From: Rhodococcus zopfii NBRC 100606 = JCM 9919
GTDB taxonomy: Bacteria > Actinomycetota > Actinomycetes > Mycobacteriales > Mycobacteriaceae
Assembly: GCF_001895025.1 (NCBI RefSeq)
Contig: NZ_BCXI01000042.1
Coordinates: 1 to 64,000 of the forward strand
Length of the DNA stretch: 64,000 nt
Direction of reading: 5' to 3'
Positions 3,060 to 61,414 of this stretch are shown here, piece by piece. Made by a program: the position numbers and the translations under genes. The notes beneath the pieces are model-generated. The model ran no database searches, was not told the origin of the DNA, and saw nothing but the letters and a program-made list of their open reading frames with translations. The first letter of the stretch is position 1. The number at the start of each line of letters is the position of its first letter.

Positions 3060-3083
3060 GGGACGTGCCATCACCGCAGGTCA
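3060..3083 (+). repeat. dispersed GGGACRTGTCAT element, copy 1
   Basis: Core GGGACGTGCCAT followed by GCAGGTCA. It lies upstream of promoter A, in plus orientation. Confidence 0.65.
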
Positions 3084-3233
3084 ACCCGAGTTCGTTGATT
3101 CAGCGACGCCAGTCCGACAAGGTCCGCCGACACCGAACACCCCGCAGGCTGCGATGCCGCGACCCGGCTCGCCGACACCGATCTGCCGCAACCGTCGGCA
3201 CAGCATCCGCCATGTTCGTGACCACCGGGCACC

Positions 3234-3257
3234 GGGACGTGCCATCACCGCAGGTCA
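3234..3257 (+). repeat. dispersed GGGACRTGTCAT element, copy 2
   Basis: Core GGGACGTGCCAT followed by GCAGGTCA, identical over 24 bases to copy 1. It lies between the leftward operon end and promoter A. Confidence 0.65.
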
Positions 3258-3273
3258 CAGCGCCGAAAGACCT

Positions 3274-3305
3274 CCGTCCCCGCACCCGAACAGGTGCGGG
3301 GACGG
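3274..3305 (-). terminator. hairpin ending the leftward operon
   Basis: A perfect 13-bp stem (CCGTCCCCGCACC / GGTGCGGGGACGG) with a six-base loop, just beyond the stop of the gene ending at 3334. There is no long T tract. Confidence 0.55.
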
Positions 3306-3333
3306 ATTCGAGCCACAGCGCACGGCTACCTCG

Positions 3334-4458
3334 TCACTGCGGCCGGTACTGCTGGGTGCGGGCAATGCCGTCGTCGTAGTCGTCGACGTACTCCCCGCCC
3401 CCGCGCGTGTACATGCCACCGACGCGATCGGGGTCGTAGGCCATGAACACCACATCGGGGCGGCCGTCGTTGAAGGTCCGGAAGGTGTCGTAGTCCCAGC
3501 CATCGGGGGCGTAGTCGTCGTTCCACTTCAGCCGCGCGACCGGCACGAACCCGGCTTGGGCGTAGAGCTTCGGCAGGACGGTGTCGAAGCAGTCCAGGCG
3601 GCGGCCGCCGAGCGCGGTGGCCTGCGAGAGCATCGATTGCACGGCCTTCGGGTGCGCACAGTCCTTGTGCGCGAATGCGGAGACGATCTCGTCGTCTTTG
3701 AGGGCGACTCCGGCCTTTCCGTCGTCGGTGACCAGCAGCCGCATTTTCCGGTATTCGTCCTCGTCGTAGACGTACACCGACGCCGCATAGGGGTTCTTCT
3801 CGGTCAGCTCGAGCATCCGGGCGCGATAGACACCGGAGTCCGCCGCGGCCAGTTCGTAGAGCGTCGGTGCCGACATCCCGGCCGAGGTGAAACGCTCGCG
3901 CTCGGCGTCGGACAGGGTGTGCTCGGCGACCGGGGTGATCTGCTGGCCGTCAATCAGAAGCCGAGCGCTTCGGCCTCCTCGATCTCCGGATCGCTCCAGT
4001 AGTCCTCGATCTTCTTGCGCTGGTCCTCCGGCAGTTCCGGGCTCCACCCGTACTGCCTCCAGAACTTCTCGCGGCGCTCCTGCGTCATCGGTTCCTCGTT
4101 GTGCATCGTCGGTTCCTTCCTCGTCGGTCTGTCCTGCGCGGGCGCGGCGCAGCGCGTCGGTTTGCTCGGCTCGTAGCCTCTCAGCGTCTCGCAGACGCGC
4201 GGTCAACGCGTCCCGGTCGGTCGGGTCGGTCGCGACCGTGATCGCCTCGCGGAGTTCGTCCTGGCCGCCGGGAGTGGAGTCGAACAACGCCAGGGTCTCG
4301 GCGAAGTCGGCCTCGGCGGCGGCGAGGCGACGTTGCAGCCGCGCGTGAGCCGGGTACTCGGCCAGCCGCGCGCGGGCGGTGGCGACGCGCGCGGCGACCT
4401 GGTCGAGGCGCTGGCGCATGTGCGGGGTGCAGCGCGGTCCAGGCTTGGGCTTACACAT
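3334..4458 (-). CDS. MCKPKPGPRC-type protein with C-terminal acyltransferase-like domain; possibly two genes read as one frame
   Basis: A 374-codon open frame. The N-terminal 125 residues (MCKPKPGPRC, then a charged coiled region) resemble a family often found in actinobacterial plasmids and phages. The C-terminal 190 residues contain YAASVYVYDEDEYRKMRLLV and KLYAQAGFVPVARLKWNDDY, a GNAT-like pattern seen at the ends of some mobile-element proteins. The middle (about 3954-4106) has poor codon third positions in this frame and good ones in another, where a 50-codon gene with its own ribosome site lies. The locus may therefore be three genes: an N-terminal gene, the small gene, and the C-terminal gene. 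The start overlaps the upstream amidohydrolase stop by eight bases, implying coupled translation. Confidence 0.55.
   Translation of the reverse strand: MCKPKPGPRCTPHMRQRLDQVAARVATARARLAEYPAHARLQRRLAAAEADFAETLALFDSTPGGQDELREAITVATDPTDRDALTARLRDAERLRAEQTDALRRARAGQTDEEGTDDAQRGTDDAGAPREVLEAVRVEPGTAGGPAQEDRGLLERSGDRGGRSARLLIDGQQITPVAEHTLSDAERERFTSAGMSAPTLYELAAADSGVYRARMLELTEKNPYAASVYVYDEDEYRKMRLLVTDDGKAGVALKDDEIVSAFAHKDCAHPKAVQSMLSQATALGGRRLDCFDTVLPKLYAQAGFVPVARLKWNDDYAPDGWDYDTFRTFNDGRPDVVFMAYDPDRVGGMYTRGGGEYVDDYDDGIARTQQYRPQ
3954..4106 (-). CDS. small embedded ORF, 50 aa
   Basis: Reads MHNEEPMTQERREKFWRQYG and ends EIEEAEALGF. A ribosome site (AAGGAACC) lies just before the ATG, third positions are GC-rich, and aromatic and acidic residues make it look like a genuine small soluble protein. 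It lies wholly inside the middle of the 374-codon frame in a different reading frame, where that longer frame has atypical codon use. No family is recognised. A second in-frame ATG lies at 4088. Confidence 0.5.
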   Translation of the reverse strand: MHNEEPMTQERREKFWRQYGWSPELPEDQRKKIEDYWSDPEIEEAEALGF

Positions 4459-5266
4459 CGGCGGCCGCCTGGGCGGTGACCGTGTCGATCAGGGCGGCCA
4501 GCGCCCGGCCGAGCCGGTCGACGCGCGCGGGGTCGGGGGTGCGCGGGTCGGTGAGGTAGACATCGCGGCGCAGCTCGATCATCACCGAGGTGACGCGCTC
4601 GTCGTGGCCGTAGTGGCGCAGCGGCACATAGGTGCCCGCGTAGGGGGTGTTCTCGGCGATCTCGGTGATCTCGGGCAGGGACGCGAATGCGCCACGGGTG
4701 GCCTCGATCAACCAGGCCGGGGTGTGGACCGGGTCGGTGCCGATGCACAGCGCGGGGCGTGCGGCGGTGGGGTCCTCGAACCCGGACGGGGTGGCGGGGT
4801 ACGAGTGCAGGTCGATGATCACCGCGCGCCCGCACACGCGCAGGCGCTCGGCGACCGCTGCGGTGACTGCGTCGGCGTAGGGACGGAAATGAGCGTCGAG
4901 CAGCTGCTCGGCGCGCGGGTAGGGCTCGGGGCGCAGCGGCGTGCCGGTGCAGGTGCGGGTGTAGACCGCACCCCGGCCGAACGCGGTGGCCGGCTCTCCG
5001 GCGTCAGGGAAGCGTTCGGGGTCGATCACCAGGCGCGATGCCGTGTTGACCACAGTGGTTGGCCGCTGCCGGGTGCGGCGCACCGCTGCCGCTGCGATCT
5101 CGTCGGTGGCAGTGTCGGTCGCTTCGTCGAGTTCGGCGGCCAGCTCGACATCGGTGACGAGCAGTTCCGCGCGCAGTTCGGGTGGGATGACGCGTGAAGC
5201 GTGCGGGACGTGGATGAGCACCGGAGACCGATCGTCTCCCGGTGTGACGAGCGCAGAACTGGGCAC
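4451..5266 (-). CDS. N-formylglutamate amidohydrolase family protein
   Basis: A 271-residue protein with the family landmarks: LIHVPHASRVIP near the N-terminus, DLHSYP in the middle, and TPYAGTYVPLRHYGHDERV followed by IELRRDVYL near the C-terminus. These hydrolases release formate from N-formyl-glutamate or similar amides using a bound metal. On mobile elements the substrate is unknown; cell-wall or tagged peptides are possible. The start is GTG with a GAGAAGGGGGAGAA leader. It heads a coupled pair with the following gene (eight-base overlap). Confidence 0.8.
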   Translation of the reverse strand: MPSSALVTPGDDRSPVLIHVPHASRVIPPELRAELLVTDVELAAELDEATDTATDEIAAAAVRRTRQRPTTVVNTASRLVIDPERFPDAGEPATAFGRGAVYTRTCTGTPLRPEPYPRAEQLLDAHFRPYADAVTAAVAERLRVCGRAVIIDLHSYPATPSGFEDPTAARPALCIGTDPVHTPAWLIEATRGAFASLPEITEIAENTPYAGTYVPLRHYGHDERVTSVMIELRRDVYLTDPRTPDPARVDRLGRALAALIDTVTAQAAADV

Positions 5267-5462: not shown

Positions 5463-5466
5463 ACTC

Positions 5467-5862: not shown

Positions 5863-6058
5863 CCCCTTCTCGGTAGTGGACTAGCGGCGGGCCGGGCACG
5901 ACAGCAGGGCCCGGGGACGCGAATTGTCCTCGAGGTGAAGTGATTCACCAACCGGGTACCGGTCAGGCGCTGCGCTGCTTGCGGGCGCGCACAGCGGATT
6001 CCCGCACGATCCAGGTACTGCCGACGCGGATCGCCGGAAGCGTGCCGGTGGTGATCGC
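5863..6058 (-). repeat. 195-bp duplicated segment, right copy
   Basis: Partner of 5267-5462; covers the 3' end of the HTH gene plus the following intergenic DNA and ribosome-site region. The offset between copies is about 596 bases. Confidence 0.75.
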
Positions 6059-6406
6059 CTTGAGGACGGCCTGGCGGCTGATGCCGAGTGCGTCGGCGGC
6101 CTCCTGGACCGACACCAGCGGCGGGACCTCGATTGCGTCGATGAGGCGGTCGAAATCGTCGGTGGGCAGCACGCGCAGCGAGCGCAGCGGCCACGGGTAG
6201 GTCTCAAGGATGGCCAGGGCGGTGCTGGTGGCCTGGCGGACGGTGTCGGCGGGGATGGTGAACACCACCTCGGCGTGGCCGAGTTCGGAGCGGGAGGCGG
6301 CACCGCTGTAGTCGGCGATGGGGTCGAGCAGCGCCTCGGCGGTGTCCTCGTCGAAACTCGCGTCGAGTTCGGCAACGACGTTGAACTGCTGGGGCTGGGT
6401 GGTCAC
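5963..6406 (-). CDS. HTH (excisionase/MerR-like) DNA-binding protein
   Basis: A 147-residue protein. The N-terminal 90 residues form an unassigned domain (FNVVAELDASFDEDTAEALL; SELGHAEVVFTIPADTV). The C-terminal 50 residues are a helix-turn-helix of the excisionase class: VSVQEAADALGISRQAVLKA, followed by an RVGSTWIV wing. GTG 6406 is chosen because AAAGGAC lies just upstream; an upstream start at 6472 lacks this. It follows the HicA-like gene in the same direction and could be its partner or regulator. Its 3' end is partly duplicated at 5267-5462. Confidence 0.7.
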   Translation of the reverse strand: MTTQPQQFNVVAELDASFDEDTAEALLDPIADYSGAASRSELGHAEVVFTIPADTVRQATSTALAILETYPWPLRSLRVLPTDDFDRLIDAIEVPPLVSVQEAADALGISRQAVLKAITTGTLPAIRVGSTWIVRESAVRARKQRSA

Positions 6407-6452
6407 GACGGGTCCTTTCGTGTGGTCGGGTGTGGTGGTGGACAATGAGGCC

Positions 6453-6483
6453 GGGCCGGGGGTGGTTCCCACACCCCCGGCCC
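6453..6483 (-). terminator. hairpin between HicA-like and HTH genes
   Basis: A perfect 12-bp stem (GGGCCGGGGGTG / CACCCCCGGCCC) directly after the HicA-like stop. It could terminate or attenuate transcription into the HTH gene. Confidence 0.45.
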
Positions 6484-7345: not shown

Positions 7346-7555
7346 TCAGGCCGCGGCGAGCGCACCGCGCGCGGCGGCGGTCAGCTCGATGTCGAGGGCG
7401 TTCGCGCGCGGCACGAGCGTGCCGTCGGCCAGGCGGACGTCGGCGTACCGGCCGCTTTCGTCGGTGTGGTACTTGCCGATTTCGGCGATCTCGGCGCGCA
7501 CCGGGTCTCCGGCGATGGTGACGGTAACGAGTTCGGCGACAGTGGTTTTCGACAT
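7346..7555 (-). CDS. small hypothetical protein, 69 aa
   Basis: Starts MSKTTVAELVTVTIAGDPVR and contains HTDESGRYADVRLADGTLVP, suggesting a small beta-rich soluble protein. ATG 7555 is chosen over an upstream in-frame start because AAGGAG lies seven bases before it. It is the first gene after promoter B, 30-40 bases downstream of the predicted start of transcription. No function is assigned. Confidence 0.6.
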   Translation of the reverse strand: MSKTTVAELVTVTIAGDPVRAEIAEIGKYHTDESGRYADVRLADGTLVPRANALDIELTAAARGALAAA

Positions 7556-7592: not shown

Positions 7593-7622
7593 ACTATACA
7601 AATATCTTTTGTATTGTTGCAA
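7593..7622 (-). promoter_or_regulatory. promoter with palindromic operator (site B)
   Basis: Read leftward: TTGCAA, 18 bases, TATAGT. The spacer holds ATACAAAAGATATTTGTAT, a 7-5-7 perfect inverted repeat. Confidence 0.7.
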
Positions 7623-7658: not shown

Positions 7659-7682
7659 GGGACGTGTCATCGACGCAGGTCA
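7659..7682 (+). repeat. dispersed GGGACRTGTCAT element, copy 3
   Basis: Core GGGACGTGTCAT followed by GCAGGTCA, just upstream of promoter B. Confidence 0.7.
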
Positions 7683-7711
7683 CAGCGACTTTTCGAGCCC
7701 CTGTGATCGAC

Positions 7712-7782: not shown

Positions 7783-7806
7783 GGGACATGTCATCCATGC
7801 AGTTCA
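7783..7806 (+). repeat. dispersed GGGACRTGTCAT element, copy 4
   Basis: Core GGGACATGTCAT followed by GCAGTTCA. It overlaps the stop codon of the leftward gene ending at 7791. Confidence 0.7.
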
Positions 7807-8720
7807 GGGCACATTTTCGGCAACTCGTCGTACGCATCGAGCGCACCGGCAGCCCGGTCGGCGACCTCACCGAGTGCCGGGGCGATGGCCAGGGCGTCGG
7901 CGACGGCAGCAGCCAGCCGCCCCATCTGCTCGGCGTCACTGCGCGCCCGCAGCTCACGCGCCTCCTCGAACTCGGCCCGGCGCGCGGGTTCACTCAGCAT
8001 CCGGTCGAACACCTCGACCCGATGCGCCAGCGCCGCGAGGGTGTTCGCTCCCTTCCGCACATTCATCAGACACGCACCGAGCGCCGTGCGGGCCTGCTCG
8101 ACCTGCTCGCGGTATTCGGGCCCGGCCGAAGCGGTCTTCAGCTCGTCGCGGAGCCGGATACCGGCCAGAAGATGCTGGGCCAGCTCCCACAGCGCGGCGT
8201 CGAGGTCGATCTCGGGCAGCCAGTGTTCGCGGTAGGCGACCGACGCGCGGATCGTGTCGACAGCGGTCAGGGCGCGGCGGAACGGGTCGGCAAGATTCTT
8301 CGGCGCAGCGGCAAGATCCACGGTGGTCAGAGCCCCGTACTTCTCCGCCCTCAGTCGGGCGAGGCCGATGGCCCCGCAGCCGAGCAGGAAGGCCGCCATG
8401 CCCCCGCCGAAGGCCGACAGCGCGACGATCTGCGTGAGATCGATGCCCTGACCGGCCTCGACGCTGCCGTCGATCGCCGCAAGCGGCCGCTCCGGTGCGG
8501 AGACAACGCACGCGACGGTGGCCACCAGACCGAGCGCACTCGCTACTGCCCCGGACGCGGCCACCACGGCCCCGGCCGTGCGCGCGGCGGCCAGGGACTT
8601 ACGGCGCGCGGCCGGAGCGAGCGCCACCACGTCCTGGAACTCGAGTACACGTTCGTCGACGCTCTTGCGGCGTGACCTGCGCTGCGCCGCAGCCGATCGC
8701 GCAGAGCCGGAAGCCGTCAT
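7791..8720 (-). CDS. two-helix membrane protein of unknown function
   Basis: A 309-residue protein. A basic N-terminus precedes two membrane segments (AGAVVAASGAVASALGLVA near residue 50, and IVALSAFGGGMAAFLLGCGA near residue 105). A long, mostly helical cytoplasmic region of about 180 residues follows, rich in arginine and glutamate. ATG 8720 has GAGGGGGAAC directly upstream; ATG 8738 overlaps the exonuclease stop as ATGA but lacks a ribosome site. The layout resembles membrane-anchored proteins of actinobacterial conjugative plasmids, but no family is recognised. A strong terminator follows. Confidence 0.6.
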   Translation of the reverse strand: MTASGSARSAAAQRRSRRKSVDERVLEFQDVVALAPAARRKSLAAARTAGAVVAASGAVASALGLVATVACVVSAPERPLAAIDGSVEAGQGIDLTQIVALSAFGGGMAAFLLGCGAIGLARLRAEKYGALTTVDLAAAPKNLADPFRRALTAVDTIRASVAYREHWLPEIDLDAALWELAQHLLAGIRLRDELKTASAGPEYREQVEQARTALGACLMNVRKGANTLAALAHRVEVFDRMLSEPARRAEFEEARELRARSDAEQMGRLAAAVADALAIAPALGEVADRAAGALDAYDELPKMCPELHG

Positions 8721-13220: not shown

Positions 13221-13244
13221 GGGACGTGTCATAGCCCCAGCTCA
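13221..13244 (+). repeat. dispersed GGGACRTGTCAT element, copy 5
   Basis: Core GGGACGTGTCAT, then CCCCAGCTCA. It is the left edge of an 86-bp block repeated at 15316. Confidence 0.65.
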
Positions 13245-13268
13245 CAACACCTTTACGCCGGACAACAC

Positions 13269-15315: not shown

Positions 15316-15339
15316 GGGACATGTCATCGTCCCAGATCA
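15316..15339 (+). repeat. dispersed GGGACRTGTCAT element, copy 6
   Basis: Core GGGACATGTCAT, then CCCAGATCA. Confidence 0.65.
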
Positions 15340-15363
15340 CAGCACCTTTCCACCGGACAACAC

Positions 15364-15417: not shown

Positions 15418-15441
15418 GGGACATGTCGTTTATGCAGGTCA
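15418..15441 (+). repeat. dispersed GGGACRTGTCAT element, copy 7
   Basis: Core GGGACATGTCGT then GCAGGTCA; its last three bases are the stop codon of the leftward lipoprotein gene. Confidence 0.7.
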
Positions 15442-15960
15442 TCGGCAGTCAACATGGATCGACAGATACACCCGGCCCTCGTCGTCGGCCGAGTTCCATT
15501 CGGCCGGGGCAGCGGCCGCGGCCGCGATGTCGAGCTGATCGGCCTCGGACCAGTCCACGGGCCGCGCCACGTCGGCGAACTGATCGGTGGTGTCGATCTC
15601 GACGCCGGCCAGGTTCTGCTCGGTGTTCTCCACGGTCACGATCGGTGAACCGTGGCGGGCCCGGATCGTCCAGCCGTGCGGGGCCGTGATGTCGACGGCC
15701 AGATCCTCGCCGCGGCCGGTGCAGCGCGCGGCGACGTCCTCGGGCCTGGGGGTGGTGATCGCGGTGGCCGAATGCCCCTGCCCCCAACCGATGACGATGC
15801 TGCCCAGGTCGGTGCTGTCGGGAGTGACGATCGCGCCGCTGAACGAGGTGGACACGGCCGCCGCGTCGCGTGGCCCGCCGCCGCACGCGGTCACGGCAAG
15901 TCCGCATGCGGCCGCGACGGTGGCGAGCACCGCGCGGTGGTGCAGGTGGATGAAGGGCAT
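15439..15960 (-). CDS. lipoprotein, 173 aa
   Basis: ATG 15960 begins MPFIHLHHRAVLATVAAACG with a lipobox LAVTAC, so the mature protein would be lipid-anchored outside the membrane. The remainder is beta-rich and acidic, with no recognised domain. An upstream in-frame start (16011) would add a non-signal leader and is less likely. It lies 47 bases downstream of the VirB8-like gene, as the last member of the leftward transfer operon, so it may be part of the secretion channel's outer face. Confidence 0.7.
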   Translation of the reverse strand: MPFIHLHHRAVLATVAAACGLAVTACGGGPRDAAAVSTSFSGAIVTPDSTDLGSIVIGWGQGHSATAITTPRPEDVAARCTGRGEDLAVDITAPHGWTIRARHGSPIVTVENTEQNLAGVEIDTTDQFADVARPVDWSEADQLDIAAAAAAPAEWNSADDEGRVYLSIHVDCR

Positions 15961-16007
15961 GTGCGGGTGGTCCTTTCGCTGGTGGGGCGGCGCGGCGGCG
16001 CGGGCGG

Positions 16008-20149: not shown

Positions 20150-22324
20150 TCATGCAGGCGCTCCTACGAGGTCGGGTTCGGGCAGGACGACGACGCCGGT
20201 CGCGTCGAAGGTGATGCGGGTTTTCACGCGGCCGGTGCCGACTGTCAGGACGGTCTCGATAACCTCGCCCTTCTTGCCGCGCCGGACGTCGACCGAGTCG
20301 ACGGCGACCGGCACGAGTTCGCCGTCCTCGTTGTCGATCAGCACGGTCTGCCCGGCCACCACACTCGATGCCGGGACGACGTCGGCGAAGTCGTCGTCGA
20401 CCGCAGGTTCCGGGTCGGGTTCGGGGGCGCTCTTGGTCATCGACACCGCGCCCTCGTCGGTGCGGGTCGCGCCGACGACGATCGGTTCGGGGGCGCTGCC
20501 GTGGCGGCGGGCCCGCTTGGCCAGGGCGCGTTCGGATTCGATGAACTCGGCCAGCTCGGGCGAGTAGCAGACGAACTGCGGTGCCTCGGCCGGCACGAGC
20601 CCGTCGATGATCGACTTCTCACCGGCCGAAAGCTGGTTCCACTTGTTCGGATGACGGTCGACGTTCGGGGTCCACCACATCTGCGCATCGACCGGGTTTC
20701 CGTCATCGCCGAGCGCGATACCGCGGCCTTTGACCGAGGTGTCGACCTCACGGCTGACGGTGGAGTCGCCCCACATCATCAGCGCGCCGTCCTGGGACAG
20801 GTTGCCGAGGCTGATGCGGGTGCCGAAGTTGTCGCGCGCGTTGCCGGAGGCTCCACCGAACAGGGACGCGTCCGGGCGCTGCACGCCGAGCAACAACCGG
20901 ATCCCGGCCGAGCGGGCGAGCACCGCGAGATCGGCCCACGCGCCGAGCGGGTCGAGTTCCTTGAGTAGCGCGCGGGTCTCGTCGTCGCCGGTCTTGGCCA
21001 GACGCTGCCACTTGCCGGAGAGGATGAAGAATTCGTCGAGCACCGCGATCATCAGCGGCAGCTGCGAGCCTTCGATCTTCATCTGATGGATGTAGGCGTT
21101 GCGGGCCATCATCTCGGTGTGCAGGGCGCGCACGAACATCGCTGCGCGCAGTGCGTCGTAGATGATCGCCCCGCACCCCGGGTAGCCCTCGAGTCCGTCG
21201 AGTTCGATCATCTTCGGATCGACGCCGACGAACGGGATGCCGCGGCGCGCGGCTTCGGTGAGCAGCGTGCGGATCACCGAGGTCTTACCGCCACCGGTGG
21301 GGCCGACGATCAGGCAGTGCGGTTTGTTGGAGCTGGTCGAGACATCCCAGTACATGATCCGGTCGGCCGCACCGGTCGCATAGGGAAGGTGACGCAGGTT
21401 CTCGTCGACCAGCGCGAGCGGATGATCGACACGCTCGGGCATCGCGGTCACCAGACGCATCACGAGGTAGCCCTTGTCCGGATACCAGTCGGTGGTCCAG
21501 TTGCGGCCCGATTCGTGCGGACCGGCAAGTGAGGCGAGAGCTTCGTCGACCTTCATCTGGAAGCCGGGCGATCCGGCGTTCATCGACTTGTCGAAGCCGA
21601 CGCGGTAGCCGGTTTCGATGCCGTCCTCGTCGATGGTCTCCACACTCACGTTCGGGTTCTTGAAGATCGAGGCATCATCGAGCGCGTCCTGGAGGACCTT
21701 GTGGCGCTCGCTGCGGGTGTCCGGGGCGATCGGTTCGCGGGTGACGACGATGCGGTCGCGGCGCGCATCGTGGCGAACCTTGATCTCCGACGCTGCACTG
21801 CCGCCGAAAGCGGATTCGATCGCGCGGGACAGTTCCTCGAACTGCTTGGGCCGGATGACCGTGCCGCGGGGCAGCTTGATGGTTGCGCGGCGGATGGCGC
21901 GCCACCCGGAGGGGAACGTGACGGTGACTTTCGTGGGCAGGTGCCCGGTGGATTGGCGGACCATCGATTCGAGCATGCGCGACCACTTGCGGGTGCGGTG
22001 GCGAGAGACATCGACGGCGACCAGCGGGACCGCTGCGACGGCCAGGGGCCAGCTGTAGTCGTGCAGCTGTGTCAGCGCATCGACGACCGTTTCGTTGCCC
22101 GCAGCCGCCGACGCGATTCGGGGGGCGTAGAAGCCGACGGCCGCAGCCCCGCAGACGATCGGCGAGAACGGGAAGAAACGCGTGACGCGCGTCGGCTGGC
22201 CGTCTGCGCCGACCTGCATGCCGCGCGCGGCTCCTTGTGTGCCACGCGTGGGGCCTTGATCGCCGAACGTGTCGCGCCACGTAGCGACCAACCAGTCCTT
22301 GAGTGGGTCTGGACTTCCGCTCAC
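20150..22324 (-). CDS. FtsK/SpoIIIE-type DNA translocase (TraB/coupling-protein-like)
   Basis: A 724-residue protein. The N-terminus has one or two membrane segments (near residues 45-95). The motor has Walker A VGPTGGGKTSVIRTLL (near residue 340) and Walker B LMIAVLDEFFIL (near 428), with VDPKMIELDGLEGYPGCGA between them, as in FtsK proteins. The C-terminal 120 residues, beyond the motor, may read DNA. It should pump plasmid DNA, either as the coupling protein of the nearby type IV system or as a TraB-like double-strand pump. GTG 22324 is used (AAAGG eight bases upstream); the frame extends to 22543 without a ribosome site. Confidence 0.8.
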   Translation of the reverse strand: MSGSPDPLKDWLVATWRDTFGDQGPTRGTQGAARGMQVGADGQPTRVTRFFPFSPIVCGAAAVGFYAPRIASAAAGNETVVDALTQLHDYSWPLAVAAVPLVAVDVSRHRTRKWSRMLESMVRQSTGHLPTKVTVTFPSGWRAIRRATIKLPRGTVIRPKQFEELSRAIESAFGGSAASEIKVRHDARRDRIVVTREPIAPDTRSERHKVLQDALDDASIFKNPNVSVETIDEDGIETGYRVGFDKSMNAGSPGFQMKVDEALASLAGPHESGRNWTTDWYPDKGYLVMRLVTAMPERVDHPLALVDENLRHLPYATGAADRIMYWDVSTSSNKPHCLIVGPTGGGKTSVIRTLLTEAARRGIPFVGVDPKMIELDGLEGYPGCGAIIYDALRAAMFVRALHTEMMARNAYIHQMKIEGSQLPLMIAVLDEFFILSGKWQRLAKTGDDETRALLKELDPLGAWADLAVLARSAGIRLLLGVQRPDASLFGGASGNARDNFGTRISLGNLSQDGALMMWGDSTVSREVDTSVKGRGIALGDDGNPVDAQMWWTPNVDRHPNKWNQLSAGEKSIIDGLVPAEAPQFVCYSPELAEFIESERALAKRARRHGSAPEPIVVGATRTDEGAVSMTKSAPEPDPEPAVDDDFADVVPASSVVAGQTVLIDNEDGELVPVAVDSVDVRRGKKGEVIETVLTVGTGRVKTRITFDATGVVVLPEPDLVGAPA

Positions 22325-31971: not shown

Positions 31972-31995
31972 GGGACATGTCATCGTCCCAGTTGA
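31972..31995 (+). repeat. dispersed GGGACRTGTCAT element, copy 8
   Basis: Core GGGACATGTCAT, then CCCAGTTGA. It begins on the base right after the stop of the hydrolase gene. Confidence 0.7.
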
Positions 31996-32144
31996 AAGGC
32001 CAGTTGCGCGGGTCGCATCGGGGGATCTCTCACCGCTGACTCCCGCGCGCCGTGGCGCAGAGACCGATCTCGGCACAACACCACGACAGGAGGAAGGCGA
32101 TGTCGGAACAGCGGCGATCGGCGAGGTACCCATTCGGCCGAGAG

Positions 32145-32168
32145 GGGACGTGTCATTTACCGTGCTAG
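32145..32168 (+). repeat. dispersed GGGACRTGTCAT element, copy 9
   Basis: Core GGGACGTGTCAT; the downstream half is degenerate. Upstream of the gene at 32202. Confidence 0.6.
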
Positions 32169-32201
32169 AAGCCTATTTCTGCTTGCAAGATGGAGAGTAA
32201 T

Positions 32202-33394: not shown

Positions 33395-33418
33395 GGGACG
33401 TGTCATTTATGCAGGTGA
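33395..33418 (+). repeat. dispersed GGGACRTGTCAT element, copy 10
   Basis: Core GGGACGTGTCAT, then TTATGCAGGTGA. A good match to the consensus. Confidence 0.7.
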
Positions 33419-33580
33419 AATGGGCGCGATCCCCCTCCAGCCCGACACGGTGGCGCCCATCACACCGAGCGAAACACTGGACGAATGAGGTTGCATGACC
33501 TGTTTTGCCTGAAGTATGTTTCAACTCATTCGGGGGAGATGTCTCTTCCGCGTGCGCGCCGGTCGGTGAGTGATTCCCGG

Positions 33581-37339: not shown

Positions 37340-37363
37340 GGGACGTGTCGTCAGTACAGGTAA
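37340..37363 (+). repeat. dispersed GGGACRTGTCAT element, copy 11
   Basis: Core GGGACGTGTCGT, then TACAGGTAA. It starts 15 bases after the rep stop. Confidence 0.6.
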
Positions 37364-37492
37364 ACGCCATTTTTAGGATCAAAGGGCCTGATGTTGGACG
37401 GTGTGACGTCCCACAGTCACCATCAGAGAGTGAATAGGCTGCGGAACAAGACCCGCTGAGCCCGAAAACGAGCAAGAGGACGGAGCAGTGCC

Positions 37493-46312: not shown

Positions 46313-46336
46313 GGGACGTGTCGTCTCCGCAGTACA
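46313..46336 (+). repeat. dispersed GGGACRTGTCAT element, copy 12
   Basis: Core GGGACGTGTCGT then GCAGTACA, just before ATG 46345. Confidence 0.55.
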
Positions 46337-46344
46337 GTGCGGGT

Positions 46345-48492
46345 ATGTGCCGCTCGAAAGCTCACGGAACTGGTCGTCGTTGCCCGGGCTGCGGGAGTTA
46401 CAAGGCCGCCGCGAAGGCCAACGGAAACCGCCGGCTCGGCCGCGAGGCTCGGAAGAAGGTCGTCGACCACCTGAAGGAACAGGGATTGGTCGAGACCGCG
46501 GCCGCCATCCAGGCGGCCCCGCCGAGCGTCCTGAAGGAGTTCATGGAAGGTCTCGGTATCGATCCCGAGATCCTCGGCAAGACACCAATGCCGAGCACCC
46601 ACGCGAACCCGCCCAGCGCGAAACTGCTGATCGCGCAGGCGAAAGCCGAGCGGGACAAGCTGGCCGCCCCGAAGATCACCCCGGCACAAGCCACTCTCGC
46701 CGCCGCCGAGGCGAACGTCGCCGCAGTTGACGACGAGGCCAACGAGGCACGAAAGGCCGTCAACCGGTATCGGTCTCGGCTTCGCAAGGCCAGCAAGGAA
46801 CTGGAGGAGGGGACCGGATCTGCCGCGGCGGTCGTCGAACAGCAGAAGCTGCTCGACGACGCCAAGGCCGCGTACCTCGACGCGCAGCGCCGCCAGGGCG
46901 AGGCGCGCGATGACCTTGCCGCAGCACAGTTCGGGTTGCGCGAGGACATGGCCAGCGACGAAGAACGCGACGCCTACTACGCCAGCCTCACAGGCGACGA
47001 GGTGGCGGCGATCGGCCGGTCCTACAACCGCAAGTACGCCGCCGAGGCGAACGCGGCGATCGCTGAGGGCCCCGTCCTCGCGCCGGCCGGAGTCGAGCGA
47101 GACACCACCGTCTACAAGTCGGGCACGATCCCGATGGAAACCGGATCCGGTGTCGAACAGGTCGAAGGCCGGTACCTCGACGGCGGCACAGCGATCGTCC
47201 GCCGCGGATACAGCGACTTTGTCGTGCTCCAGCGCAAGGGCGACGCGTACTACCCGGTGGCCACCGCCAACGGCAAGCAAGACGCCCTGACCAAGGCCAA
47301 CCGCATTCCGATCCTCGTCGACCCCGGCGCGCTGCCTGAGGGCGCAACCGACATGCAGCGCCAGGTCCACGCAATCCAGGGCGACGTGCTGCTCGACGTG
47401 GCACGGCAGTCGGCCGCGGGGAAGGCCCTCACCGCCGAAAGCCAGCAGAAGATCATCAACGACGGCTACAGCGGCGCCGTCGAGAAGCTGACCGACTCGG
47501 TCGGCGCCGGCCCGGTCCGCGCGGACATCTACGACGGCGTCAAGCGGCACAACAAGCGCCTCCGGGAGCAGGCCGCAGTCGCCGCGGGCGAGAAGGCGCG
47601 CAGTGAGGCGTTGGCCGCCGGCAAGACCACGGCGCAGGCCGAGGAGGCGTACACCCGCGCCCACCGCCGAGCGCTCGGCACCGAGACCCGCGGCGGCGGG
47701 GTGATCCCGCACTTCGAGCACAAGATCCCACCGGAAAGCCTGGGGGCCGAGAAGCACAAGAGCTTGTACCGCAGTGGGATCCGTGCCTTCGGCAAGGAAA
47801 CTGCCGACGACTACGCGGTGATTCACCAGCGGGCCGGCAATCTGACGGCATGGGGATTCTCGGTCAGCGGGGAGAAGGTGCACACCGCAGACCTGTCCAA
47901 ACTGACGGCGCACAATTCCGCGTTCGTGAACAAGGTGCTCGACAAGTCCGAACGCAACGCGCTGACGACCTACACCGGCGGCAGCTACCAAACAATCAAT
48001 GCTGCTGTGACAGGACGTGATCCGAACCCGGCCGCGTCGACGAAGACTACCGTCGCAGGTCTCGAGTCGGCGTTCGACAAGTTCAACGAGCACAACCCGA
48101 ACAGCGAGCCGATGACCGTCATGCGCGGGACCCGGATCCCGAGCGGGTGGAAGGGAACGCCGGCCGAGTACATCGACGCCACCTTCACGGTCGGCTCGAA
48201 AATGCAGATCGGCAAGGTCACGAGCACCACGACCAAGCAGAGCACCGCGAAGGCATTCTCCGGCCAACCGCCGTACATGATGGTCATTCGCACCCGCTCC
48301 GGTCTGCCGGTCAAGTCGATCTCGCTGCACAGCGGCGAAGACGAGGTCATCGTTCCGACTGGAACCGATCTCCGGTGCGTTCGCGTCGACCACCACGGCC
48401 TCCACGGGATGCCGACGGTGTGGCTCGTCGCCGAAGACCTGGTCGCAGAAGCCGACGGTGGCACCCACACGCCACTCAAGGCGGCCGCGTAG
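46345..48492 (+). CDS. ADP-ribosyltransferase (R-S-E class), intracellular
   Basis: A 715-residue protein starting MCRSKAHGTGRRCPGCGS, a start shared by related actinobacterial proteins. Long helical, coiled-coil regions (residues 80-200) come before the catalytic part. Its three ART landmarks are MTVMRGTRIPSGW (Arg near 593), GKVTSTTTKQSTAKAF (Ser/Thr near 626) and SGEDEVIVPTG (ExE near 665). Such enzymes transfer ADP-ribose from NAD to a protein or nucleic acid. No signal peptide is seen. A longer start at 46219 has GGAGG eight bases upstream and adds 42 residues. A 62-residue gene and an ADP-ribosylglycohydrolase gene follow. Confidence 0.75.
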   Translation: MCRSKAHGTGRRCPGCGSYKAAAKANGNRRLGREARKKVVDHLKEQGLVETAAAIQAAPPSVLKEFMEGLGIDPEILGKTPMPSTHANPPSAKLLIAQAKAERDKLAAPKITPAQATLAAAEANVAAVDDEANEARKAVNRYRSRLRKASKELEEGTGSAAAVVEQQKLLDDAKAAYLDAQRRQGEARDDLAAAQFGLREDMASDEERDAYYASLTGDEVAAIGRSYNRKYAAEANAAIAEGPVLAPAGVERDTTVYKSGTIPMETGSGVEQVEGRYLDGGTAIVRRGYSDFVVLQRKGDAYYPVATANGKQDALTKANRIPILVDPGALPEGATDMQRQVHAIQGDVLLDVARQSAAGKALTAESQQKIINDGYSGAVEKLTDSVGAGPVRADIYDGVKRHNKRLREQAAVAAGEKARSEALAAGKTTAQAEEAYTRAHRRALGTETRGGGVIPHFEHKIPPESLGAEKHKSLYRSGIRAFGKETADDYAVIHQRAGNLTAWGFSVSGEKVHTADLSKLTAHNSAFVNKVLDKSERNALTTYTGGSYQTINAAVTGRDPNPAASTKTTVAGLESAFDKFNEHNPNSEPMTVMRGTRIPSGWKGTPAEYIDATFTVGSKMQIGKVTSTTTKQSTAKAFSGQPPYMMVIRTRSGLPVKSISLHSGEDEVIVPTGTDLRCVRVDHHGLHGMPTVWLVAEDLVAEADGGTHTPLKAAA

Positions 48493-48506
48493 AACAAAAT
48501 GCCTAT

Positions 48507-48530
48507 CTACATGGGAAAATGACACGTCCC
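48507..48530 (-). repeat. dispersed GGGACRTGTCAT element, copy 13
   Basis: Reads ATGACACGTCCC on the plus strand, just after the ADP-ribosyltransferase stop and 22 bases before the next start. First copy in minus orientation. Confidence 0.65.
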
Positions 48531-48551
48531 CCTTTAGCGAAAGAGAACACC

Positions 48552-48740: not shown

Positions 48741-49834
48741 CCGCACCGACCACCAACGATCACGCCGCCCAGCTCGCGCGCTATGGCAACGCTCTGACCG
48801 GTCTCGCGGCCGGCGACGCCTGGGGTTACCAGGTCGAATTCCGCAAGTACGACGCGATGCCGGCCTACCCGGTGCCGGCGCCCGCAGCCGAGTGGATCGT
48901 CAGCGACGACACACAGATGACGCTCGCCCTGCACGACGCGCTCGTCGAGGTCACCGACTTCGACGACATCCCTGCGGTCACGGACTCGATCGTCCGGCAC
49001 TTCGTTCTGTGGCAGCTCGACCCCGACAACACCCGCGCACCCGGACGGGCCTGCATGGGATCTCTGTCGAACCTGCGCGCCGGCGCCCGCTGGTACGACG
49101 CCGACGGAGCCCACGAATCCGCCGGCTGCGGTGCCGTGATGCGCCTGGTACCAGCTGCATTCGCACCCGAACCCTACTGGCGGGGACTGACCGCCCTTCA
49201 GGCCGTGATCACCCACAAGCACCCGCGCGCGATCGTGCCGGCGCTGCTGCTCGCCGATGCGATCCGTCACGCACCCGAACGGCACGGTCGGTTCCTCGAG
49301 CATGCCCTGGCCGAGGCCGAGCGGATCTTCGACGGTGTCAGCGAATGGCTGGCCGATCCCTACCTCGCTGAGGTCCTCGCCCCGTATCGAGGAGACGTGT
49401 CATCTGTGCTGGTAGATGGCCTGAACGATGATGTCGTCGACATTCTGGTGGCGGCCGCGGAGGCCCTGGATCGGCTGAAGCAGATCGCCCCCGCCGAGTA
49501 CGGCGATCCGTGCGCCGGCATCGGCGAGGGGTGGGAGTCCGCCAGTGCGATCGCTCTCGGACTGCTCGCCGCCGACCTGACCACCACACCGGAGGACCAG
49601 AAGGTCATGCCGCCGACCGGCGCGTGGGGTGGCCCGCAGGCGCTCGGCTGGGCGGCCACCAGCAACGGCGACTCGGACTCGATCGCCTGCATCGCTGGTG
49701 CGCTCGTCGGGGCGGCTCAGACCAGCCCGGACTACTGGCCCGTGGCCGGTCTCACGCCGCGGTTCGAGCGGCGGTACACCACCGAGATCGAGGCGGCCTC
49801 CGCCCAGCTCCCCGGAGCCGCAGCGCCGCGCTGA
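48737..49834 (+). CDS. ADP-ribosylglycohydrolase (ARH/DraG family)
   Basis: A 365-residue all-helical protein with the metal-binding ends of the family: SDDTQMTLALHDAL near residue 56 and TSNGDSDSIACIAGALVGAA near 310. Between them are SAGCGAVMRLVP and ITHKHPRAIVPALLLADAI. The enzymes remove ADP-ribose from modified proteins or nucleic acids using two magnesium ions. Placed just behind an ADP-ribosyltransferase and coupled through a small gene, it can reverse that modification. Dispersed element copy 14 lies inside the coding sequence. Confidence 0.85.
   Translation: MTAPTTNDHAAQLARYGNALTGLAAGDAWGYQVEFRKYDAMPAYPVPAPAAEWIVSDDTQMTLALHDALVEVTDFDDIPAVTDSIVRHFVLWQLDPDNTRAPGRACMGSLSNLRAGARWYDADGAHESAGCGAVMRLVPAAFAPEPYWRGLTALQAVITHKHPRAIVPALLLADAIRHAPERHGRFLEHALAEAERIFDGVSEWLADPYLAEVLAPYRGDVSSVLVDGLNDDVVDILVAAAEALDRLKQIAPAEYGDPCAGIGEGWESASAIALGLLAADLTTTPEDQKVMPPTGAWGGPQALGWAATSNGDSDSIACIAGALVGAAQTSPDYWPVAGLTPRFERRYTTEIEAASAQLPGAAAPR
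49392..49415 (+). repeat. dispersed GGGACRTGTCAT element, copy 14 (inside a gene)
   Basis: Core GAGACGTGTCAT inside the ADP-ribosylglycohydrolase gene; the second half is weak. May be coincidence. Confidence 0.3.
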
Positions 49835-49864
49835 GCCAGGGTACCCCGTAGGTGAAATGGGCTG

Positions 49865-49888
49865 TGACCTGCGAAAGTGACATGTCCC
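49865..49888 (-). repeat. dispersed GGGACRTGTCAT element, copy 15
   Basis: TGACCTGCGAAAGTGACATG then TCCC, between the ADP-ribosylglycohydrolase gene and the next membrane-protein gene. Confidence 0.7.
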
Positions 49889-50552: not shown

Positions 50553-50571
50553 CCGGGTATGAAATGCCTTT

Positions 50572-50595
50572 TGGACTAGGGAAATGACACGTCCC
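50572..50595 (-). repeat. dispersed GGGACRTGTCAT element, copy 16
   Basis: Core ATGACACGTCCC, about 30 bases after a stop codon; shares AAATGCCT farther left with copy 13. Confidence 0.6.
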
Positions 50596-50864
50596 TCTTG
50601 GTCTTCTTCGCCCGCCTGGCGGGCGTTCACACCGACATTCGCAGCCAGGACATCCCACGAGGGTGCACCGAGGAAATCCGATGCCGTCTCGGACTGTGCA
50701 TGTCAGCTGGGTCGTACAGTCCGGCCGCATGACGGTGGCCATTCTGTACGCGCACGTCAGCGAGAACACGGTTATCCACCGGATGTTCATGGGCCCCGGC
50801 GCCCGCAGAGTCGAACACTGGGCGAGGCTCGATCCGCCTAGACGAGGTCTGTTTAAACGGTTCC

Positions 50865-50888
50865 TGAGCTGCGGAGATGGCATGTCCC
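50865..50888 (-). repeat. dispersed GGGACRTGTCAT element, copy 17
   Basis: TGAGCTGCGGAGATGGCATG then TCCC. Confidence 0.6.
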
Positions 50889-54073: not shown

Positions 54074-54424
54074 ATGCCCACACCCGACCTGACGACGAGC
54101 GCCTTCCCGCCGAACGGGGACGACCGGCCCCGGTTCAAGCAGTGGAACGGCCACATCGACCGCGAGGACTGGCTCACCCGGGACAAGGACGACCTGGTCG
54201 GCATCATCGGCCTGCTCAACCATCAGGTCACCAACGCGAAACAAGATGCGCTCGACGCGACCTACCTCGCTGAATGGCGCATCCACAAGATGCTCACCGA
54301 GGTCCGTATCGGAGCCCGGATCTACCTGCATCTCACCCGCGCCCGCCACCGAGGCCGCAAGACCGCCCGAATCGACGATCTGCTTGCGCTCGCCGCCGAC
54401 GTCCCACAGAAGTACCGAGAATGA
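54074..54424 (+). CDS. hypothetical protein, 116 aa
   Basis: A basic, charged protein: FKQWNGHIDREDWLTRDKDD, LVGIIGLLNHQVTNAKQDAL, and LHLTRARHRGRKTARIDDLL. ATG 54074 has GAGAGGACTC upstream. The next gene overlaps its stop by four bases. No family is recognised. Confidence 0.6.
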   Translation: MPTPDLTTSAFPPNGDDRPRFKQWNGHIDREDWLTRDKDDLVGIIGLLNHQVTNAKQDALDATYLAEWRIHKMLTEVRIGARIYLHLTRARHRGRKTARIDDLLALAADVPQKYRE

Positions 54425-54744
54425 GGGCATCTATCAGGAAAAACGACACGTCCCCTTCTTTCGACGTCCCGGCTGACTCCCAGCCGACAGCTGCCGCGCA
54501 GAAGTTCGCCCACCCGTGCGGGCACGAATCCTCGTGGGGGCGATGCGAACTGCGCGACCCGGTCGATAAACTGGCCGCGCTCTGGGGTGTGGCTGAGATC
54601 GTCCCGGCCGCCGACGGGATCGCCGAACACCTGCACCCGTTCCAATACTGCGGGGCCGAGCAGACCGCCGTGGACATCTGGGCCCACCACAGCTTGAGCG
54701 CGACCGCCCACCCTCGCGCGGCTTGTCCTCCTCATCCGCCGTGA
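54421..54744 (+). CDS. small Cys/His-rich protein, 107 aa
   Basis: Overlaps the previous stop as ATGA. It reads FAHPCGHESSWGRCELRDPV, DKLAALWGVAEIVPAADGIA and HPFQYCGAEQTAVDIWAHHS. The Cys/His spacing suggests one zinc site, and the layout is like small phage proteins. Dispersed element copy 18 lies in its first 12 codons. Confidence 0.55.
   Translation: MRASIRKNDTSPSFDVPADSQPTAAAQKFAHPCGHESSWGRCELRDPVDKLAALWGVAEIVPAADGIAEHLHPFQYCGAEQTAVDIWAHHSLSATAHPRAACPPHPP
54431..54454 (-). repeat. dispersed GGGACRTGTCAT element, copy 18
   Basis: Core ACGACACGTCCC, within the start of a small gene. Confidence 0.5.
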
Positions 54745-55415: not shown

Positions 55416-55873
55416 GCACTACCCACCCGTTTGGTCGAATTTCGTGGTTCGTGGTGTCCTGAGCATGTAGCCCTCATCCCGGCGCTACGCGCGATAAGCC
55501 GCCCCTGTCGACAGACCCCCCGCCTGATCGACAGGGGCGTCGTCGGTGGATGCCGCCTGCGGCGGAGATGGAATGCTCCAGGGATTGTGGGGGAGGCGCG
55601 GGCCCGCGGTGATGCTGGAATCGGATATCGGAAAGGGCCGTGCCCACGCCCCTGCGAGGAGACGCGGCGTCGAGTTCACGCTCGGGACGGTCAACCCAAC
55701 AGCGCGCAGGCGTGCGAAGGGCGCTGCGCGGTTCGGCTTCACGCTCGTCTGCGCGCCGGCTGACCCGCGACCCGTGGCCCCCGGGAGAACTTCGTGAGAG
55801 GGTCGGTAAAATTGCCTGTTGAACTGCGAAAATGACATGTCCCCTTTCTCGTGTCGAACTGAGAGGAACTACC
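55416..55873. other. 458-bp intergenic region
   Basis: Only dispersed element copy 19 (55820-55843) and low-quality short frames are seen. No gene is supported. Confidence 0.5.
55820..55843 (-). repeat. dispersed GGGACRTGTCAT element, copy 19
   Basis: TGAACTGCGAAAATGACATG then TCCC, the closest match to the consensus. It lies 31 bases before the next start. Confidence 0.75.
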
Positions 55874-56038: not shown

Positions 56039-56200
56039 CCGGCTACCGTCGGCATCCTCGTGCGGGACCGCGGATGAACGCGAAATAACGTCCGATCGGT
56101 TGCTCTGGTCTGCGGACAGGGTCGGGTTCGCCCGGGCTCTGCTTCCGGCTCTGGCAGATGGATGGCGTCAGCGCGGCCAACCGATGAATGAAATGGGCTG

Positions 56201-56224
56201 TGAACTGATGAAATAGCACGTCCC
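56201..56224 (-). repeat. dispersed GGGACRTGTCAT element, copy 20
   Basis: TGAACTGATGAAATAGCACG then TCCC; shares GAAATGGGCTGTGA to its left with copy 15. Confidence 0.65.
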
Positions 56225-58985: not shown

Positions 58986-59009
58986 GGGACATGTCATCAG
59001 TGCTGCTCA
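58986..59009 (+). repeat. dispersed GGGACRTGTCAT element, copy 21
   Basis: Core GGGACATGTCAT, overlapping the stop codon of the leftward gene ending at 58997, as in copy 4. Confidence 0.65.
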
Positions 59010-59218
59010 GCGCCGATGTTTATCAGAACCCTGACCTCGGCGAGCAGGGCTTCGGACCGGGTCATCCATTCGAGCGCATCGGCCCGTGAGGTGGGGTCGA
59101 ACGATGACTCGGTAGCGGCCTCGTAGGCGGTGCGGGCGTACTGCTCGGCGCGGTGGAAGTCGCCGGAAGCGAGCATCTGGGTTGCGGTGCACACGTCAGC
59201 GGCGATCGTTTCGAGCAA
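58997..59218 (-). CDS. small helical protein, 73 aa
   Basis: TTG 59218 has AGGAGG eight bases upstream; the longer frame starting at 59413 would read through the neighbouring promoter. It reads LETIAADVCTATQMLASGDF, HRAEQYARTAYEAATESSFD and LEWMTRSEALLAEVRVLINI, a helix pair resembling TPR units. It is transcribed divergently from the gene at 59376. Confidence 0.5.
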   Translation of the reverse strand: MLETIAADVCTATQMLASGDFHRAEQYARTAYEAATESSFDPTSRADALEWMTRSEALLAEVRVLINIGAEQH

Positions 59219-59347: not shown

Positions 59348-59375
59348 AACATCATCAAAATGAGAGGGGGAAGCC

Positions 59376-60655: not shown

Positions 60656-61014
60656 GCGTCGCGTCGGCGTTGTCCGGCCCCCGGAGAGGCGGGCGCCGGA
60701 ACAACGGCCGTGACGCTACCTGCCTCGCAGGGGCGCGCTGCTGAGGAGGGGACGTGTCGTTCAATCCCGGCACTCTCGGGCCGGGTCCACCCTCCAGGGG
60801 CGGTGGTGGCGCAGAAGCCGACGGCGAAGCTGGCGGGTTCGTGTTCGAGTCCTACCCAGTCGACGAGAATGTGCTGCACCGCCGGATCGGTGATCCGGCC
60901 CGGATGGCCGTGAAACAGCAACGGCGGCTGCGGATCCGGGGTGAGGATGTCGCGGTCGGTGTCGTGTCCGCGAAAGGCCACCGGCGCTCCGGGGCGCACC
61001 CGGTTCGTCGCCAT
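59839..61014 (-). CDS. protein of unknown function; only the first 90 codons look coding
   Basis: From ATG 61014 the frame reads MATNRVRPGAPVAFRGHDTD, RDILTPDPQPPLLFHGHPGR, ILVDWVGLEHEPASFAVGFC with strong third-position GC. From about 60745 leftward it runs antisense to the zinc-ribbon pseudogene and loses coding character, yet stays open to 59839. The natural stop near 60745 seems lost, and dispersed element copy 22 lies there. Treat the real gene as about 60745-61014. Confidence 0.35.
   Translation of the reverse strand: MATNRVRPGAPVAFRGHDTDRDILTPDPQPPLLFHGHPGRITDPAVQHILVDWVGLEHEPASFAVGFCATTAPGGWTRPESAGIERHVPSSAARPCEAGSVTAVVPAPASPGAGQRRRDAHAPTGNFAVSSTDRETIFGRTTLVWSTPRYCSCALTFAAMVTRIPDRDVRRRLSKPLQDMAARGAEQHEFRHTPRVRYRAHCGDRRVDSDLLSDLADVPRRDRRACGGLLLCAVAGTDERDQQRQRAQSHRIAREQRAHVQAVVAVEGVGVGAQRIDLVLQNLARLGLDLGDPSAVICGGVRTREQDIDDVIGGGTQRAALGHGAAAHEAATVVGDDQGQAQHGRYVGGDRLPRAGGAVLVGIGGEAPFVEFSGGEHLEDPQPAQRDAEEQ
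60749..60772 (+). repeat. dispersed GGGACRTGTCAT element, copy 22
   Basis: Core GGGACGTGTCGT; the downstream half is degenerate. Confidence 0.45.
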
Positions 61015-61196
61015 CGCCTCGTTCCATTCCACTCGTTCAGGATTGCGTGATCGCTGTGTTCGGCGAGGGCCGGGACGGTCGGGATCGAACGGTGCGACGG
61101 AGCAGTTCAGAGGAGAACGGTTAGGCAGTGAAACGTTCGTGTCGTGGCCGGCGATAGGGCAGTGGAGGTCGGCGGCACGCCGGCGCACCGAACATC

Positions 61197-61232
61197 CGTT
61201 CCCGGATCACTCCCCCCTGCGATCCGGGAACG
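61197..61232. terminator. hairpin terminator candidate
   Basis: CGTTCCCGGATC and GATCCGGGAACG, a perfect 12-bp stem with a 12-base loop. Confidence 0.5.
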
Positions 61233-61260
61233 GGTGGGCCACCCGCGGTGGCCCGAACTG

Positions 61261-61303
61261 CTGGAAGGCTCGACCAGAACCCCCCGCCGGTCGAGCCTTC
61301 CAG
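61261..61303. terminator. hairpin terminator candidate
   Basis: CTGGAAGGCTCGACC and GGTCGAGCCTTCCAG, a perfect 15-bp stem with a 13-base loop. Confidence 0.5.
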
Positions 61304-61390
61304 CGCAGTACAGAAGACGAGCGTGCGCGGCCCAGCTTGTTCCCGCGGGATCTGCCGGCTCCCGCGGTGGGCGGTGCGCGCGTTCAATCA

Positions 61391-61414
61391 GGGGCGTGTC
61401 ATCGACCTGATCGG
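61391..61414 (+). repeat. dispersed GGGACRTGTCAT element, copy 23 (weak)
   Basis: Core GGGGCGTGTCAT, then CGACCTGA; one core mismatch. Confidence 0.35.

Follow-up and report, generated by a model that had tools for sequence, protein, structure and literature searches.

An asymmetric 35-bp element that favours gene ends on plasmids of Rhodococcus and related Mycobacteriales, with a possible role as a boundary between transcription units

FtsK polarity motifs are directional and are read by an FtsK-type translocase, and the uptake sequences of Haemophilus and Neisseria combine a core with A/T tracts or lie near gene ends. An element of about 35 bp, repeated 21 times in the first 64 kb (the window) of contig C42 (NZ_BCXI01000042.1; 82,486 bp, possibly incomplete) in the 6.3-Mb draft genome of Rhodococcus zopfii NBRC 100606 = JCM 9919, is compared here with these and other systems. 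Stoperators are known from the cluster A mycobacteriophages L5, Bxb1 and Trixie (structure, PDB 7r6r); passages of PMC6550527 describe them as lacking dyad symmetry and as present in 20-30 copies genome-wide, some at promoters and most not. The operators (OB) of KorB, which is also a partition protein of plasmid RK2, appear in passages of PMC11790492 as 16-bp silencers that precede promoters by 4-10 bp or by 45 to >1,000 bp, some of them acting from far away. In Streptomyces plasmids, TraB recognizes 8-bp repeats (TRS) at the clt locus, according to part of PMC4170104.

The element resembles stoperators in its asymmetry and number, with 21 sites in the window and 26-33 on three relatives, and, compared by eye, its first 13 positions agree at 8 with the ...TCAAG 13-mer that is commonest in a 12-kb stretch of Trixie (6 copies). 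However, it measures 24-35 bp as opposed to 13-14 bp, is plasmid-borne and tied to stop codons, takes no orientation from transcription, and was found without a cognate two-domain repressor (phrog_357). The kinship with stoperators suggested in a preliminary description of the window, made from the sequence alone, was therefore not upheld, and the favoured view is that the element works like stoperators without being one of them. With KorB operators it would have in common that they are sites of a plasmid protein and that some OB act far from promoters, but it is asymmetric, favours gene ends, and no KorB homologue was found among 49 window proteins. Like TRS and FtsK polarity motifs it has a direction, and its plasmids encode an FtsK-type translocase; unlike TRS it is about 35 bp long, dispersed, and randomly oriented on two replicons. 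The window itself is a member of the pNSL1/pVAPN type of linear Rhodococcus plasmids by gene order and by a DNA identity (megablast) of about 80% along much of the stretch. Its backbone is common to pNSL1 and pRaL13d, both recorded as linear, in the same gene order (tblastn of annotated pNSL1 and pRaL13d proteins; megablast).

The repeat was confirmed as real. Alignment of the copies in the preliminary description gave GGGACRTGYCRT-N5-CAGNTCA-N7-TTT, with information mainly at positions 1-12, 18-24 and 32-34, and the element extends past the 24-bp core, with its two strong blocks, to a weaker A/T tract. A T tract characterises the pVAPN-like group: TTT occupies positions 32-34 in just 11 of the 21 C42 copies, AAA in 13 of 21 copies of Rhodococcus G222, and Mycolicibacterium copies mostly have neither. 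The palindrome reported in the core is confined to the near-palindromic GACRTGYC; CAGNTCA and the T tract are one-sided, and the whole site thus lacks the palindromic form of KorB and ParB operators. The strict pattern GGGACRTGTCAT-N0..8-GCAGKTCA was found 3 times in the window versus 0 in 100 shuffles, and the 12-bp core, allowing up to two mismatches, 27 times versus a shuffle mean of 11.8 and maximum of 22. Furthermore, a matrix of 35 positions, trained on 84 sites of pNSL1, pRaL13d and a Prescottella subtropica contig, detected 21 window sites of 25-44 bits (Table 1), whereas 100 windows simulated with matching dinucleotide composition gave 0.04 matches per window at 12 bits or more and a top score of 14.7; the test is not fully independent, because the training sites were picked with a matrix from 20 window copies. 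These 20 are what remains of the approximately 22 copies first reported (those on the minus strand by the left edge of the 24-bp core): 60749 and 61391, left out of the matrix, failed with scores of -7 and -12, and the plus-strand copy at 49392 had been missed. No site above 16 bits lies past 59 kb on C42.

The main new fact is the preference of the element for stop codons over starts; the preliminary description had noted stop-codon contact without pressing it. Genes were called with an in-house caller that recovered 67 of the 72 annotated pNSL1 stops and gave 3 extra. Although 75.5% of positions 1-61000 is coding, 16 of the 21 window cores lie wholly outside called genes, 4 overlap a gene end and 1 is within a gene, in agreement with the original statement that copies sit mostly between genes. 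The contacts at 7783, 15418, 31972 and 58986 are given in Table 1, the last being with a weakly called gene. Over ten replicons, 217 sites scoring at least 18 bits were placed relative to genes, 155 of them wholly intergenic; neither set is independent, because orthologues are included. The centres of 45 of the 155 intergenic copies lie within 40 bp of a stop codon, versus 7.3% of random placements in the same gaps, and those of 7 lie as close to a start, versus 7.4%. When gene-overlapping copies are counted too, a stop is close by for 85 of 217 and a start for 11, but the 155-copy set is the fair comparison, since the random placements were confined to gaps and real copies are free to overlap genes. 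In 20 of the 217, the TGA at positions 22-24 is itself the stop codon of a gene abutting in antisense. Density per kb, from 156 copies on seven replicons, is 0.64 in convergent gaps, 0.48 in tandem gaps, 0.135 in divergent gaps and 0.018 in genes; few copies therefore occupy divergent promoter gaps, and intergenic density is above coding.

In its own genome the element is plasmid-borne and largely confined to this plasmid, as first proposed. At up to two mismatches, 26 matches were found, of which C42 holds 17, C78 3, and C29 and C56 one each, the other 4 being two-mismatch hits elsewhere; a reversed control gave 6. C78, a contig of 10 kb, has genes belonging to this plasmid type, and 20 of the 26 matches fall on it and C42. 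Chromosomes seldom carry the element, whereas related plasmids in Rhodococcus, Prescottella, Nocardia and Mycolicibacterium do so at high density. Four pVAPN-like replicons carry 21-33 copies apiece: pRaL13d has 26, the P. subtropica contig (73 kb) 33, and pNSL1, scanned over 100 of its 117 kb, 32, none of them in 66-100 kb. Site-free stretches of 23-34 kb occur on C42 and pNSL1, and cargo is without sites. Elsewhere, pRHL3 (332 kb) has 13 sites and pRHL2, covered over its first 200 kb and from 260 kb onward, 0 in the former part and 10 in the latter; at 14 bits or more, a Nocardia pseudovaccinii contig has 15, a Mycolicibacterium novocastrense contig 33 and a Mycolicibacterium frederiksbergense plasmid 30. 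Counts outside the pVAPN-like group may be low because the matrix was built on that group. In the M. novocastrense genome, 24 of 24 matches at up to one mismatch fall on that contig. Of 401 genomes of the family, 39 contain an exact match, versus 5 with one match each for the reversed control, and some of the exact matches are single copies on large, probably chromosomal contigs. BLAST with the consensus returned 51 plasmid records, 40 from Rhodococcus and 11 from Prescottella. Among the 80 listed of at least 117 matching stretches in the GTDB collection, 50 belong by title to Rhodococcus, Prescottella, Aldersonia, Nocardia or Mycolicibacterium; the remaining 30 are scattered over phyla and are near chance by an in-house estimate. 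In 2.9 million viral contigs, 4 matching stretches were found. The terminal repeats of pRHL3 have one copy about 550 bp from each end (550; 331780), pointing inward, and exact copies also lie close to contig ends in several other Rhodococcus replicons.

Individual copies are kept in place by selection. In orthologous copies of the four pVAPN-like replicons, the 18 core positions are 81-85% identical versus 30-42% in ungapped 30-bp flanks (15 hand-matched quartets, 13-14 per comparison, with 49392 excluded as coding). Self-BLAST around different-locus copies in C42, pNSL1 and pRaL13d found no long common flanks except between 13221 and 15316, and because copies mostly lack common flanks the element is not a mobile repeat, as the preliminary description had held in calling it a recognition site. 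A mobile or recombination element, in the form of transposon ends, a MITE-like repeat or cassette junctions, is accordingly very improbable and mostly refuted: it would account for direct pairs that bound some gaps, for genes that end inside copies and for common flanks elsewhere (several G222 copies, a few P. subtropica pairs, and one pRHL3 pair besides the terminal repeats), but not for conserved cores, for the absence of a common flank or spacer between loci, or for neighbours so diverse that no protein family recurs in more than 8 of the 133 loci examined with plasmid proteins or in more than 4 of 20 further ones. Also in its favour, a 262-bp gap of pNSL1 (locus L015, 9276-9537) with two direct copies corresponds in pRaL13d to a 32-bp gap without copies, read here as gain or loss of a paired unit. 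A likeness to IS21-like transposon ends was dismissed, no protein family being common to more than 4 of the 20 further loci, where transposases were not searched by name.

For a site that is long, one-sided, individually maintained, partial to gene ends and scarce at promoters, a model is tentatively preferred in which the element would be a protein-bound boundary, or roadblock, separating transcription units. In the inferred mechanism, binder included, the element would mark where transcription units of the conserved backbone end, and a putative sequence-specific DNA-binding protein would serve a whole family of Mycobacteriales plasmids. One protein would read both blocks and, once bound, act as a roadblock or insulator, halting RNA polymerase as it passes from one unit into the next, in the manner of cluster A phage repressors at stoperators. 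Because orientation is independent of transcription, such a roadblock would have to work from both sides. A few copies, for example in the promoter region of the ADP-ribosyltransferase at 46345, may be ordinary operators. More doubtful is the broader proposal of an undescribed, orientation-free boundary system of Mycobacteriales conjugative plasmids, in which a protein of the plasmid family would sit on the 35-bp element behind the stop codons of backbone operons, as a bacterial counterpart of insulators, on linear Rhodococcus plasmids (relatives of pVAPN included) and Mycolicibacterium megaplasmids. The element is unmentioned in the titles and abstract openings of the literature searched, full texts aside, and in passages of PMC5434932; among the matches listed for a sequence string in the literature, none is on such plasmids by title.

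Several observations weigh against the boundary model. The candidate search found no binder among the families tested, and the G222 replicon lacks the stop-codon preference, with 1 of 19 intergenic copies near a stop. A two-way roadblock leaves unexplained both the orientation blocks of the pVAPN-like group and the bias of copies against the strand of the nearest gene (84 of 217 on it, 133 on the other). Furthermore, a minority of copies keep a conserved spacing to the start of a downstream gene, for which a pure roadblock has no use: gene 32202-32783 and its homologues in P. subtropica and pRHL3 are preceded by one at 23-24 bp, gene 7346-7555 in four plasmids is preceded by one at 103-104 bp, exactly 36 bp from the -35 box, and the start of the ADP-ribosyltransferase gene has, 6 bp ahead of it, a -10-like hexamer that a copy overlaps. 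No cluster A repressor homologue was found in 23 element-bearing genomes, the best phrog_357 match having an E of 0.13, and the Trixie repressor had no phmmer match in six-frame open reading frames of at least 80 aa from the replicons searched.

The tested families of the window that can be detected on every dense replicon are TraB, ParA-like proteins and the M23 hydrolase. The XRE and excisionase-like helix-turn-helix proteins of the window were not detected on all of them, and were rejected as binder for that reason. A phospholipase-D-like gene (locus L010, 5410-6357; annotated from relatives, without a Pfam match) sits among copies on pRHL2, pRHL3, pNSL1 and pRaL13d, and in four plasmids a copy lies some 100 bp upstream of it; it was rejected since the genome of P. 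subtropica, with the densest replicon, has just a distant homologue on another contig. Many of its further matches in large Rhodococcus genomes are partial. A nearest-neighbour gene as partner was set aside as well, none recurring in more than 8 of the 133 loci, many of which are themselves chance matches; the 20 further loci were on chromosomes and other contigs. Intrinsic terminators failed as a general partner, with 17 matches versus 15.5 expected in two 20-kb stretches; 7 consensus promoters were found in the same stretches, 0 of them on an element copy.

The orientation of the copies bears on a different explanation, that of a polar translocation motif of the KOPS/TRS kind, read by the FtsK-type TraB to direct transfer of plasmid DNA. 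In the window, 12 plus copies from 3 to 46 kb are followed by minus copies, as first described, with 49392 as the exception. The four pVAPN-like replicons, which are of common descent, show 4, 4, 4 and 9 switches of orientation versus 9.3, 9.2, 10.7 and 15.3 by permutation (P 0.008, 0.006, 0.0004 and 0.013), and TraB is detectable on all dense replicons, its best match falling under E 1e-90 in 16 of 20 genomes with the element versus 1 of 20 other genomes. However, permutation found no significant blocks on pRHL3, part of pRHL2, G222:C2 (covered over 260 of 775 kb), N. pseudovaccinii, M. novocastrense or M. frederiksbergense. Orientation is random on the last two (11 switches versus 11.3 expected; 13 versus 12.9) and on the G222:C2 stretch (10 versus 8.6), and the idea of polar translocation, raised in the preliminary description, is therefore weakened to a rather unlikely one. 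The site-free stretches of C42 and pNSL1 and the spread of information over 24-34 bp as opposed to a short 8-bp site also argue against it; a model of the TraB C-terminus shows strands and no winged helix, but at a confidence (pLDDT 56.5, 7 sequences) too low to judge the DNA-reading domain. Replication polarity could not be read from intergenic GC skew, which is mostly near zero. In tandem gaps, sense and antisense copies number 23 and 55 in the pVAPN-like group, 8 and 9 in other Rhodococcus, and 22 and 23 in Nocardia plus Mycolicibacterium, the antisense lean by gap sides being strong in the pVAPN-like group only. Overall, the interpretation first given is partly supported.

Ranked second after the boundary model, although unlikely, is a dispersed silencer or partition site in the manner of the KorB operators of RK2, at which a ParB-like or nucleoid-structuring protein would fold or partition the plasmid and repress at a distance; sites would then avoid promoters because promoter contact is unneeded. 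The many backbone sites in gene-free strips and the close direct pairs fit such a role, neighbours less than 300 bp apart having the same orientation in 35 of 41 cases. So do the ParA-like genes of the window (18214-19695 and 38495-39283) and the ParA homologues of all dense replicons, weak on Mycolicibacterium. The asymmetry of the site and its want of a palindrome speak against this role, as does the search for the protein: 49 window proteins gave no ParB or KorB Pfam match, although a remote ParB could escape, the single ParB-like PHROG match (5963-6472) had an E of 0.37, and the protein beside ParA (16784-18109) had no DNA-binding match in Pfam or PHROG. It is improbable that the element tags DNA for recognition during transfer or uptake, as uptake sequences do in Haemophilus and Neisseria. 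The asymmetric core with an A/T tract on one side (T in pVAPN-like replicons, A in G222 copies, and seldom present in Mycolicibacterium), the gene-end location and the presence of TraB on dense replicons would suit such a tag, but individual sites are held at fixed places, cargo is free of them, and uptake tags are spread through chromosomes as the element is not.

Plasmids of soil actinobacteria maintain 21-33 copies of the element, and among them is the type to which the bovine R. equi virulence plasmid is assigned. The stop-codon rule offers a testable handle, a putative binding site kept at gene ends and not at promoters, and the identity of the binder would show how such large plasmids organise transcription, segregation or transfer.

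Table 1. Element copies and the translocase gene in the window, with matrix scores
Feature	Position	Strand	Score (bits)	Remark
Element copy	3060..3094	+	35.0	
Element copy	3234..3268	+	36.5	direct pair with 3060
Element copy	7659..7693	+	44.3	36 bp upstream of -35 box (TTGCAA-18-TATAGT) of gene 7346-7555
Element copy	7783..7817	+	41.7	gives TGA (positions 9-11, antisense) of gene 7791-8630
Element copy	13221..13255	+	34.8	convergent gap
Element copy	15316..15350	+	37.9	flank in common with 13221 (local duplication)
Element copy	15418..15452	+	32.4	gives TGA (positions 22-24, antisense) of gene 15439-16011
FtsK/SpoIIIE-type translocase (TraB of pVAPN)	20150..22324	-		Pfam PF01580, scanned on 20150-22219
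Element copy	31972..32006	+	32.4	immediately past stop codon of gene 30391-31971
Element copy	32145..32179	+	35.5	23 bp ahead of start of gene 32202-32783
Element copy	33395..33429	+	29.0	convergent gap
Element copy	37340..37374	+	35.6	begins 15 bases past end of gene 35943-37325
Element copy	46313..46347	+	35.2	ends on ADP-ribosyltransferase start codon; TANNNT hexamer 6 bp before ATG
Element copy	48496..48530	-	32.4	
Element copy	49392..49426	+	25.2	within ADP-ribosylglycohydrolase gene; found in 3 relatives
Element copy	49854..49888	-	38.9	
Element copy	50561..50595	-	30.9	
Element copy	50854..50888	-	36.9	direct pair with 50561
Element copy	54420..54454	-	28.7	overlaps end of gene 54074-54424
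Element copy	55809..55843	-	41.3	
Element copy	56190..56224	-	33.4	
Element copy	58986..59020	+	35.9	overlaps end of called gene 58997-59218 (weak call)

The name TraB for the translocase of pVAPN is taken from part of PMC5434932. Other window genes identified by Pfam encode a large AAA_10 ATPase, read here as VirB4-like, an M23/NlpC peptidoglycan hydrolase, an ADP-ribosyltransferase and an ADP-ribosylglycohydrolase. Just past the last element copy, a Replicase-family gene with a PriCT domain (62033-62932) is a candidate replication initiator; tblastn searches of pRaL13d and of pNSL1 up to 100 kb found no match to it. At 46345-49834, the ADP-ribosyltransferase, a 62-aa protein and the ADP-ribosylglycohydrolase have homologues of 51-63% identity on two Mycolicibacterium replicons, and the trio could be a modification/reversal or addiction set. 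The left arm of the window carries minus-strand genes. Upstream of 7346-7555 in four plasmids, the promoter-like TTGCAA-18-TATAGT (7593-7622, minus strand) has arms that form a near inverted repeat (AACWATRCAAA ... TTTGTATAGTT), and a similar TTGAAC/TAAAGT form precedes other left-arm genes; the pair at 7593-7622 is perhaps the operator of a second, unrelated regulator.

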